The translations under genes and the position numbers were made by a program. Of a DNA stretch of 64,000 nucleotides, positions 4,694 to 7,161 are shown piece by piece (position 1 is the stretch's first letter; every line of letters begins with the position of its first letter). Source of the stretch: Candidatus Melainabacteria bacterium. GTDB lineage: Bacteria; Cyanobacteriota; Vampirovibrionia; Obscuribacterales; Obscuribacteraceae. The notes under the pieces were generated by a model. It saw only the letters and a program-made list of their open reading frames with translations, was not told where the DNA came from and did not search any database. Location of the stretch: NCBI GenBank assembly GCA_003242885.1, contig QKMZ01000006.1:1605563-1669562 (forward strand), in the 5' to 3' direction.

Positions 4694-5548
4694 TTAGACT
4701 TTCGACTTAATTACGCAAACAGCCGTTGGGCGTTTTACGCGAAGTACGAGTGATTCATAAACACGGAAGCGATAGTTCATGTCGCTTGGTCCGAGATATG
4801 CAATTTGCAGATCTTCTGCGACTGCGATATCGAAGTTTTGCGCGCCTGTAGAAATTACAGCGGCTGTTCCCTTCTCAATCATCGGGCTCCAGTGAATTCC
4901 GTCCAGGCAGAGCTTGCTCAACTGATCAAGTTCTAGCGCGGGCGATTCCTTAACTGGCTTGAGCAACTGTTCGTACATATCCAACGAGCAAACAAGCGCA
5001 TAGGGGAAGTGATGGTGCGCAGCGATCAACTTTGCAATCGCGGCATACACATCTTTGACCGGCTCGTTCGGAACCTTCCAATCTCCACCCTGAATTTTTT
5101 GCGAACCAGGATAGTTAAACAATCCATTGATGCCGAGCTCTTTATTACCGTTGAAGATCAAATCATCTTCAGCATCTCCAACTTGATGTGCTGCACGAAC
5201 AGCATTGGTGATGTCGATAGGAGCGTGCATGTCTTGGCTCCATTTCACATCGCGCCAATGCAACCAGAAATCTTTGTAGATAAGAGGAACGCGAACGTAT
5301 GTTTCTTTCTCGTGAGTTCCGATCGGATTTGTATCCGGTCTTCCTTCGAGATCGACTTCAGCCGGCTCATCATCTTTGATTGTTTCCAGCGGCACGCTCT
5401 CCACTCCGGCACCCAGAGGTCCGAAAAGTGCGATCAAACGACGACCTACAACAGTGCGTCGTACTTCTTGTGCAGCAGCTTGAATCATGTCTGACGCTTG
5501 TTCGTTCGTCAGAGGTAATTCAACCAGCTTTTGGTGCATCTTCCACAC
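4694..5548 (-). CDS. Encapsulin shell protein (family 1, Linocin_M18/CFP29-like)
   Basis: This is the HK97-fold protein that self-assembles into an icosahedral nanocompartment. It resembles the Thermotoga encapsulin along its length: the N-terminal PLTNEQ helix region, the VVGRRLIALFGPLGAG segment, the E-loop region with YVRVPLIYKDFWLHWRD, the helix with the AEDDLIFNG signature, GINGLFNYPG, and the C-terminal LRVKRPTAVCV strand. I place the start at a GTG (5548), because an AGGAGG sequence at 5555-5560 sits 6 nt upstream; this gives 284 residues, the normal length. An ATG at 5539 is the alternative. The binding site lies just upstream of, and abuts, the end of the cargo gene, so translation is probably coupled. 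The cargo is encoded immediately upstream. Confidence 0.93.
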   Translation of the reverse strand: MWKMHQKLVELPLTNEQASDMIQAAAQEVRRTVVGRRLIALFGPLGAGVESVPLETIKDDEPAEVDLEGRPDTNPIGTHEKETYVRVPLIYKDFWLHWRDVKWSQDMHAPIDITNAVRAAHQVGDAEDDLIFNGNKELGINGLFNYPGSQKIQGGDWKVPNEPVKDVYAAIAKLIAAHHHFPYALVCSLDMYEQLLKPVKESPALELDQLSKLCLDGIHWSPMIEKGTAAVISTGAQNFDIAVAEDLQIAYLGPSDMNYRFRVYESLVLRVKRPTAVCVIKSKV

Positions 5549-5550
5549 AG

Positions 5551-6177
5551 TTAGCCTCCTTGCGACCATAGTGGTCCGACAGTCCATTCTTTTTTGGTAG
5601 CACCACCGGTGCTGGGTTTTCCCTTTTGGTCGGAACGACCAGAACCACCGGAGTGACCCGAGTGTCCTTGCCCGGCTTGTCCAGAACCTTGCTCCGAACG
5701 CCCACCGTGCTGTTGCTTATCTTGCGATGAGGAGTATCCGCCGTGGCTACCACCACCACCGCCATGACCATGCGACGATCCGCTTGGTCTGGTTTGGTGC
5801 GTTCCAAAATTGGATACCACTCCAGGCTTGCCACCACCGTGAGGCGGTGCATCCGGACCTAACAATTCTGCTCGCCACTCAAGGTGTTCTTCCATAAAGT
5901 GATCGAGCAATTCACGTTTCAAATCAATAGACATAGCTTGTTCTTGCAGCATGCGCTGAATGAAGAAGCTGTGATCAAGCAGCTTTTGAGTCAAAAGAGT
6001 TGGACCAGCACCATGAATTTCTTCAAGCTTGGTGGTGTTTTCTTTTTCCTCTAAAAGGATATGCGCGAACATGCGCTGAGAAACATCGCCCGGTACGCCC
6101 GGATCATTGAGCACATGGAGTATGGTCTCCGTATGATCTGCGATGTTGTGAAGGATTTCGGCAAGTGGTGTAGCCAC
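5551..6177 (-). CDS. Encapsulin cargo: His/Glu-rich helical-bundle protein with C-terminal loading peptide
   Basis: The 208-residue protein has three parts. Residues 1-105 predict four helices carrying histidines and carboxylates at helix positions suited to a metal site: H10, H15, H39xxxE43, H69, H93xxxE97 and H98. This is reminiscent of hemerythrin or ferritin-like bundles, but the exact hemerythrin pattern is not complete. Residues 108-194 form a Gly/Ser/His/Gln-rich flexible linker. The C-terminus EWTVGPLWSQGG contains a TVGxL core, like known encapsulin loading peptides such as LTVGSL. The gene starts with GTG and lies directly upstream of the shell gene. An iron, oxygen or redox role is plausible by analogy; the fold family is not confirmed. 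Confidence 0.85.
   Translation of the reverse strand: MATPLAEILHNIADHTETILHVLNDPGVPGDVSQRMFAHILLEEKENTTKLEEIHGAGPTLLTQKLLDHSFFIQRMLQEQAMSIDLKRELLDHFMEEHLEWRAELLGPDAPPHGGGKPGVVSNFGTHQTRPSGSSHGHGGGGGSHGGYSSSQDKQQHGGRSEQGSGQAGQGHSGHSGGSGRSDQKGKPSTGGATKKEWTVGPLWSQGG
5555..5560 (-). promoter_or_regulatory. Strong ribosome binding site for encapsulin, abutting the cargo gene stop
   Basis: AGGAGG read on the minus strand lies at the very end of the cargo gene, next to its stop codon at 5551-5553, and 6 nt before the GTG chosen as the shell start. It decides that start over the upstream in-frame codons, which would fall inside the cargo gene. Confidence 0.75.
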
Positions 6178-6862
6178 AGCATTTCTCTCATGACGGTCCT
6201 TGCATTCTCACAGGTATTGCCAAAGCGTGTAAAGCGACGGACGGCAACCGATGGCGTTTACAAGCGACGAAGTCCGCGTATTGTCGCAACCACGCTTGCA
6301 AAACTTGTCGGAGTAGTTTGCAAGAAATGAGAATGAATTGCAATAAAGTGACAAAAACCTCCCTAAAACCAACTTTTCAATGACTTCAGACGCAACAAAC
6401 GGTTGAAAAACACTGCGATAACCATGATTTGCAAATAGGCACGCATTGCATTGTCCAGCCATTTTTGCACGCGCAACATATCTTAAACTGCGCTCCTGCA
6501 CGCGCGCCTCATCGCCACCGCACATCTTGAAAAGGTATGGACTGAACAAATCCGTATTTGAGAATGGCGCCAGTTGTCAACACCGCAAAGCCCGCCGTCA
6601 GCAAAATCGCCATCATGCATGTCGACATGCCACCACCATCTAGTCTCACGAAATTAAAGATGTTGTACGTCCTGTTTTCAACTAGTAGCATTCATCATCA
6701 GTGAAGTAGCTGCCGAAAATCTCGGCAACATCCTAATATGAATAACGCAACACCCACTTTCCCTCATGCAATGTCGGAATTACTTTGCATGCAGCAGGCG
6801 TTGCGCTAATAGATATTGAAGCCTTTGGACAAGTCAGCGTGCACTGAGCTTGTTTGTCAAAA
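6178..6862. other. Noncoding region upstream of the encapsulin operon
   Basis: About 685 nt separate the encapsulin operon from the molbindin gene, with no convincing long gene. Two inverted repeats lie 50-150 nt upstream of the cargo start: TGTAAA (6228-6233) with TTTACA (6257-6262), and CTTGCAAAACT (6295-6305) with AGTTTGCAAG (6315-6324). They could be operators or leader hairpins. A further hairpin (TGCCGA 6711-6716 with TCGGCA 6722-6727) lies downstream of the molbindin gene. One possible very small membrane peptide is listed separately. Confidence 0.5.
6509..6628 (-). CDS. Possible 39-residue single-helix membrane peptide
   Basis: An ATG at 6628 preceded by a GGTGG sequence opens a 39-codon frame. 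Its product has one hydrophobic stretch (MMAILLTAGFAVLTTGAIL) and a short charged tail. It sits alone in an otherwise gene-free interval upstream of the encapsulin operon. Nothing but composition supports it, and it may be a chance frame. Confidence 0.25.
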   Translation of the reverse strand: MSTCMMAILLTAGFAVLTTGAILKYGFVQSIPFQDVRWR

Positions 6863-7075
6863 CTATTTCTTGACCGGCAATACGTGAATTGCTTTGACGA
6901 CCAATTCAACTTCGTCGCCAATTTTCAATCCCATTTCTTCCAATGATTCTGTTGTCAGCACCGAAGCCATGTGGGAAGGACTGGTGACATCAAATTTGAC
7001 GAGCGACATGATATCGCCGTTCTTTACCGAAGTTACCTTTGCAGTGATCTTGTTTCTTGCGCCGTAACTTGCCAT
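6863..7075 (-). CDS. Molbindin-type (Mop/TOBE) oxyanion-binding protein
   Basis: The short protein (70 residues from the ATG at 7075) matches the Mop/TOBE fold: an ARNKITAKVTSVKNG opening, the MSLVKFDV strand, a HMASVLTTESLEEMGLKIGDEVELVVKA core and a short tail. Such proteins oligomerise and bind molybdate or tungstate in the cytoplasm. The ATG at 7075 is preferred over the upstream GTG because a GAGGTG site lies about 7 nt before it. No molybdate transporter is visible nearby. Confidence 0.85.
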   Translation of the reverse strand: MASYGARNKITAKVTSVKNGDIMSLVKFDVTSPSHMASVLTTESLEEMGLKIGDEVELVVKAIHVLPVKK

Positions 7076-7161
7076 GGTCAACACCTCAAGCGATTGTGGC
7101 TGTTTTAAACGGCACGCATCATATCATGCGGGAACGCAGAGCAGGTCAATAAATTTGGAGT

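Follow-up and report, generated by a model that had tools for sequence, protein, structure and literature searches.

An encapsulin shell gene and its neighbour

The window analysed here, a stretch of 64,000 nucleotides, belongs to a genome of 6.73 Mb whose named near relatives, metagenome assemblies with the labels Candidatus Obscuribacterales or Melainabacteria, are non-photosynthetic bacteria related to cyanobacteria. On its minus strand, a gene for a protein of 208 residues is followed by the gene for a family-1 encapsulin shell. The features to which we refer below are:

5551..6177, minus: cargo gene, 208 amino acids, GTG start (from the ORF list; relatives in other genomes, single copy in its own genome)
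4694..5539, minus: family-1 encapsulin shell gene, with the likelier start (220 bits with NF041155, whose cut-off is 100 bits; 188 bits with PF04454)
5854..6177, minus: four-helix domain, residues 1-108, two hairpin copies at an offset of 54 (AlphaFold; duplication tests)
6133..6135, minus: His15, helix 1, predicted ligand, counterpart of YtfE H84 and, internally, of His69 (invariant; YtfE ligands from PMC9268430)
6049..6063, minus: His39-x3-Glu43, helix 2, predicted ligands, counterpart of YtfE H129xxxE133 (invariant)
5971..5973, minus: His69, helix 3, predicted ligand, counterpart of YtfE H160 (invariant)
5887..5901, minus: His93-x3-Glu97, helix 4, predicted ligands, counterpart of YtfE H204xxxE208 (invariant)
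5587..5853, minus: Gly/Ser/His-rich linker of about 90 residues with 8 His (linkers of relatives, 15-120 residues)
5554..5586, minus: predicted cargo-loading peptide WTVGPLWSQGG (C-terminal conservation; TVGSL-type motif, PMC8346489)

The shell ORF in full extends over 4694-5587 on the minus strand; a likelier start than the ORF limit at 5587 is the ATG at position 5539, some 11 bases past the stop codon of the cargo gene. In the order Obscuribacterales the shell was found in 14 of 53 genomes and the cargo in the identical 14, with neither of them in the other 39, and in all 14 the two genes are neighbours on the same contig and strand. The chance of obtaining the identical set by random draw is 4e-13 per genome and 6e-6 per genus, the latter being the fairer figure because genomes within one genus are not independent. 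Across 386 genomes of the phylum, the cargo appeared in 3, all of them among the 8 that have the shell. Furthermore, when 13 loci were compared, cargo and shell were the sole genes common to all and the remaining neighbours were genus-specific; the cargo gene precedes the shell gene in 11 of them and follows it in two (L042 and L043). In the genomes of the deep relatives L045 and L046 the shell lies on a different contig from the cargo, and the gene after it encodes an EncFtn-type protein (PF22277 match) with a loading peptide of its own. In these genomes our cargo would therefore be an additional one, not linked to the shell. No relatives of the cargo were found on viral contigs or plasmids, and the plasmid search with the shell returned only two Paracoccus records.

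Two other observations concern the surroundings of the gene. In a genome of the same genus the cargo frame is in two overlapping pieces (L027 and L030, on contig C405 of G043), probably by an assembly frameshift. In addition, a small ORF upstream of the cargo gene (6856-7077, minus, ASYGARNKITAKVTSVKNGDIMSLVKFDV...), found in this position only within the genus, resembles a Mop/TOBE molybdate-binding domain.

The C-terminus of the protein points in the same direction as the gene pairing. TVGSL is a described encapsulin targeting motif (PMC8346489), and the near relatives end in WTVGP[LM]W[SNP]QG, with variants such as WTVGPMWNQGG; L028 and L029 end in LSLGSLRG, and the two deepest relatives, L045 and L046, in PTVGSLLG and LTVGSLIG, respectively. 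Gene pairing and loading peptide together support the assignment of the 208-residue protein as an encapsulin cargo. Between the domain and the peptide lies the linker, whose length the earlier note had considered unusual. This is correct with respect to encapsulated ferritin-like (EncFtn) cargos, with linkers of 10-40 residues (PMC11202242) against about 91 here, but it is not a property of the whole family, in which linkers vary from 15 to 120 residues: 22-120 in the other near relatives and 15-19 in the four that are most distant. A long linker is a trait of a lineage and not a constant of the family. The largest number of His in a linker is 22 in 120 residues (L025), and the long His-rich form may act as a metal buffer.

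The four-helix domain and its predicted metal site

The AlphaFold model, obtained with 16 relatives, presents helices at residues 4-24, 30-57, 61-78 and 84-106 (pLDDT 93.1, pTM 0.85) and bears out the four-helix bundle that the earlier note had predicted in the N-terminal 105 residues. Comparison of the domain with itself indicates that a single helical hairpin was duplicated in tandem, the copies lying 54 residues apart. At this offset the self-similarity without gaps reaches 43.8, against a permutation maximum of 14.5±2.8 and a top value of 27.8 in 200 shuffles, and HHalign joins hairpin 1 with hairpin 2 at a probability of 94% (Z 10). With this offset D14-H15 corresponds to D68-H69, and H39xxxE43 to H93xxxE97. 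A hemerythrin control family submitted to the same test gave a weaker signal, 23.8 against 16.0±2.6. Both the apparent duplication and the role of H15 and H69 in completing the predicted ligand pattern are new relative to the earlier note.

In 15 full-length relatives, with identity down to about 31%, the residues invariant in 15 of 15 are I8, L9, H10, N11, H15, H39, E43, E44, L51, P59, H69, S70, L86, L91, H93, E96, E97, H98, E100 and G201. The earlier note had singled out H39xxxE43 and H93xxxE97 and had proposed the alignment of relatives as a check; both motifs are there, all four residues belong to the invariant set, and the claim did not fall for lack of conservation. In YtfE of Escherichia coli, H84 and H204 hold one iron, H129 and H160 hold the other, and E133 and E208 bridge them (PMC9268430). 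As the ligands of the cargo come in the same order, we propose the pairing of H15 with H93 and of H39 with H69, with E43 and E97 as bridges, and we consider it probable that the domain bears a dinuclear metal site.

In the helical-wheel analysis H15, E43 and H69 deviate from the hydrophobic face by at most 55 degrees, E97 by 77, H39 by -95 and H93 by -117. The predicted position of H39 and H93 at the helix flanks neither proves nor excludes one shared site. The spread in ligand height, counted from the helix limits, is 10 residues in the cargo and 11 in the HHE control, and because the two are similar this rough count does not argue against a shared site. Other residues have to be kept in mind as well. 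E44 and H98, which are internal equivalents of each other, point inward (45 and 23 degrees, respectively) and are rival candidates for the ligand role. Furthermore, H10, N11, E44, E96, H98 and E100 are as invariant as the proposed ligands, so the true ligand set could differ from the one given here.

Relation to known families and possible origins

The search for known families gave chance matches only, both in the Pfam, NCBIfam and PHROG scans of the cargo and its relatives and in the PDB sequence and profile searches with the cargo. In particular, no DyP peroxidase model of Pfam or NCBIfam matches the cargo; PF01814 (hemerythrin-like) matches none of 16 members, nor L028, L029, L045 or L046; PF22277 (EncFtn-like) does not match the family; and the PDB profile search at E<=10 did not retrieve the solved IMEF structure 6n63. 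The statement of the earlier note that the domain is not a clean ferritin-like or hemerythrin protein is in agreement with the searches of Pfam, NCBIfam, PHROGs and PDB sequences, none of which assigned the cargo confidently to a known class. Its broader proposal of a new helical metal-binding family survives in part. The family itself, unmatched and with invariant His and Glu, is well supported by these searches as a new encapsulin cargo family, but a new fold or a new metal chemistry is not supported, in view of the ligand order shared with YtfE/RIC and of a weak profile resemblance to EncFtn.

The comparison of models was less informative. Foldseek against the PDB and viral libraries gave nothing with E below 0.001 for the cargo model, a result that is not decisive for such short bundles because the HHE control also had none below this value. 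The best rows of VIA-align (designed bundles, Z 11.7; FliS, 10.7; the designed di-iron protein DFsc, 10.4 and 9.3) fall inside the noise that the tool states for helical bundles. In the open-licence literature searched we found neither a description of this cargo nor a paper on encapsulins in Melainabacteria. According to a large encapsulin survey, hemerythrin cargos occur in Actinobacteria and Proteobacteria only, some Cyanobacteria have Bfr cargos, and 90 systems are unassigned (PMC8346489).

Several related proteins were observed during these searches. In deep Cyanobacteriota lineages (L057, L058, L130 and L131) the gene after the shell codes for an EncB/EncC-like ferritin cargo with a TVGS[LM][LM]G peptide, and at another shell locus of the phylum (L132, in G065) there is a ferritin-like looking protein of about 290 residues that ends in SPLSWTVGSLKE, apparently another type of encapsulin cargo. 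EncFtn-like hairpin proteins of about 105-120 residues (families f3/f6; L141, L144 and L149) are present in genomes of the same class that have no shell match. Obscuribacterales genomes also contain several PF01814 hemerythrin-like proteins each, of RIC and HHE types (L047-L050, L060-L109), and none of the pattern-tested loci has the classical HxxxH of oxygen-carrying hemerythrins.

With respect to origin, one possibility is that the cargo goes back to an EncFtn-type ancestor whose hairpin was duplicated and fused. The four-helix dimer of EncFtn would then have been turned into a single chain, the HxxxE that EncFtn has on its surface (H57/E61 in R. rubrum) would have become the conserved metal site, and the ExxH ferroxidase ligands would have been lost. 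We regard this descent as possible but rather doubtful; it concerns origin and is compatible with the functional reading given below. The ferroxidase centre of EncFtn forms between the two hairpins of two chains, with H57, E61 and E64 binding metal on the outer surface (PMC5012862), and in sister lineages EncFtn cargos accompany the shells. HHalign places MFAHILLEEKENTTKL of the cargo on FFQHLAAEEKEHVSEA of EncB, which pairs H39 with H57, E43 with E61, E44 with E62 and N47 with H65; the register of hairpin 2 on EncB is the same as that of hairpin 1. These alignments, however, stay below significance, with a probability of 18-24% in the case of hairpin 1 and of 4-8% in that of hairpin 2 (Z 3.1-5.3), and PF22277, as said, has no match to the cargo. 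The column-permutation Z is inflated, because shuffling destroys helical periodicity, and the comparison of twelve hairpin profiles (EncFtn core and broad, two HHE, two RIC, and six ferritin/Dps halves) is the fairer control. In it hairpin 1 matched EncFtn best of the twelve, with a score of 20 and Z 5 against 15.7 for the runner-up, and with hairpin 2 (Z 3-4) EncFtn shared first place with Bfr helices A-B; the resemblance to the EncFtn profile is a lead only. Judged by its defining feature the cargo is not an EncFtn, as the E / ExxH ferroxidase ligands are absent from both hairpins: the place of E62 is occupied by E44/H98 and that of H65 by N47/W101, and E32 falls near H15/H69.

A different possibility is that the cargo is a very diverged hemerythrin-like protein of HHE/RIC type, whose di-iron site would bind or destroy O2, NO or peroxide inside the shell, as in the hemerythrin cargos of Actinobacteria. 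Such cargos are known (PMC8346489), and mycobacterial hemerythrin-like proteins act as catalases or NO peroxidases (PMC8913304). The cargo has its ligands in the order H / HxxxE / H / HxxxE, like YtfE (PMC9268430) and like the HHE paralogues in the same genomes, whose invariant residues are D9H10, H45xxxE49, E70H71 and H105xxxE109. We nevertheless consider this relationship unlikely. No cargo member matches PF01814, although this model recognises far more than a hundred further loci in these genomes; in the twelve-profile run the cargo hairpins reached Z 2.5 or less against the HHE and RIC hairpins; and HHalign of the whole cargo domain against HHE, RIC or YtfE gave no signal. There was no hemerythrin in the VIA-align top 50 of the cargo model, whereas the HHE control (L049), modelled in the same manner, found 6q09 (Z 14.2) and 2awc (Z 13.9). 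Moreover, the ligands inside each hairpin are 24 residues apart in the cargo and 34-35 in the HHE paralogues.

A third proposal is a separate cargo class in which an encapsulin-associated ferritin hairpin was duplicated and fused, gave up its ExxH and acquired a di-metal centre of HxxxE and His, so that a hemerythrin/RIC-like site would have been reached convergently. We also hold this to be unlikely.

Proposed function and comparison with known cargos

The explanation that we prefer as a whole, and to which we would give about an even chance, is that of an encapsulin nanocompartment with a duplicated-hairpin cargo whose dinuclear iron site serves the oxidation and storage of Fe(II). According to it, the gene pair would produce the nanocompartment with the 208-residue protein as cargo, and WTVGPLWSQGG, on its flexible linker, would draw this cargo into the shell. 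The two tandemly duplicated helix-turn-helix hairpins would pack into the four-helix bundle, each of them supplying one His from its first helix and one HxxxE from its second. The resulting four His and two Glu would form a symmetric dinuclear site in the core, with H15/H93 at one metal, H39/H69 at the other and E43 and E97 as bridges, as the comparison with YtfE suggests. Iron would be the most likely metal, and the most likely task the oxidation of Fe(II) with O2 or H2O2, the ferric iron being kept in the shell as iron storage and peroxide protection, while the His-rich linker would be an extra, weak metal sink.

The role in iron storage is based on analogy and gene content. The first rank of EncFtn among the twelve profiles with hairpin 1, and its place near the top with hairpin 2, speaks for the handling of iron. 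The genome itself has no EncFtn match and encodes one PF00210 protein, which looks Dps-like by sequence. In an exploratory tally the mean number of PF00210 proteins per genome was 1.4 in shell-bearing and 2.3 in shell-free genomes. A short bacterioferritin-like class of PF00210 (L119, L121, L124, L126-L129) is present in 32 of 39 shell-free Obscuribacterales genomes and in 1 of 14 shell-bearing ones (by genus, 16 of 19 and 1 of 6; P 0.006), in a post hoc tally that assigned the class from the length of the match and that includes several incomplete genomes. It gives no more than a hint of a ferritin being replaced by the compartment. Taken together with the partnership of the shell with EncFtn in the deep relatives, the tally favours iron oxidation and storage over O2 or NO chemistry, although we would place a chiefly iron-storing role at slightly under an even chance.

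That the domain is not a redox enzyme at all, its His and Glu binding zinc or serving the structure and the cargo being a structural or metal-buffering filler with a His-rich linker, would agree with the excess of invariant polar residues over what six ligands require and with linkers of up to 22 His, but we find it quite improbable: paired HxxxE with pseudo-twofold symmetry are typical of di-iron proteins, and the five relatives with short linkers of 15-22 residues (L024, L028, L029, L045 and L046) keep every conserved residue of the domain, which argues that it is the domain that matters and not the linker.

The known classes of family-1 cargo are few and mostly iron or peroxide enzymes, and a cargo unseen by the libraries, which comes with its shell in every genome where it occurs, adds a class in the non-photosynthetic sister group of cyanobacteria. 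With invariant His and Glu that look like a two-metal, probably iron, site, the cargo may carry out an iron or oxygen chemistry not yet seen in encapsulins. The visible duplication of the hairpin, in addition, offers a test case for the way in which single-chain four-helix di-metal proteins may arise from hairpin dimers such as EncFtn. The cargo is small and self-contained, so its metal content, loading and activity are directly testable.

Among the known systems, the Firmicutes IMEF cargo is likewise a four-helix monomer without ExxH that is loaded into an encapsulin and has a His/Glu metal site (loading and site being predicted in our cargo), but the IMEF site lies between two monomers (PMC11202242); this distinction was made from the description and from the PDB search for 6n63. 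The hemerythrin cargo of Actinobacteria (PF01814) shares the helical bundle with a His/Glu pattern, the position beside a family-1 shell and the C-terminal loading peptide; our cargo differs from it, on the basis of its description, in the lack of a PF01814 match, in the shorter hairpins and in a phylum unreported for that class (PMC8346489). With YtfE/RIC it has in common the four-helix bundle and the order of ligands; its second and third ligand His are 30 residues apart, against 31 in YtfE, the acidic D68 immediately precedes the third His as E159 does in YtfE, and the second His of the classical HxxxH is missing, as in RIC (PMC9268430). In contrast to YtfE/RIC, it has no ScdA_N domain, its within-hairpin ligand spacing is about 20 residues shorter, there is no sequence or profile similarity, and it carries an encapsulin loading peptide. 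Finally, it resembles EncFtn/EncB/EncC (PF22277) in being an encapsulin cargo with a TVGSL-type peptide, in the hairpin with H-xxx-E-E-K-E in its helix 2 and in the weak profile match, but it is a single chain with two hairpins where EncFtn has one, E32, E62 and H65 are replaced, and PF22277 does not recognise it.
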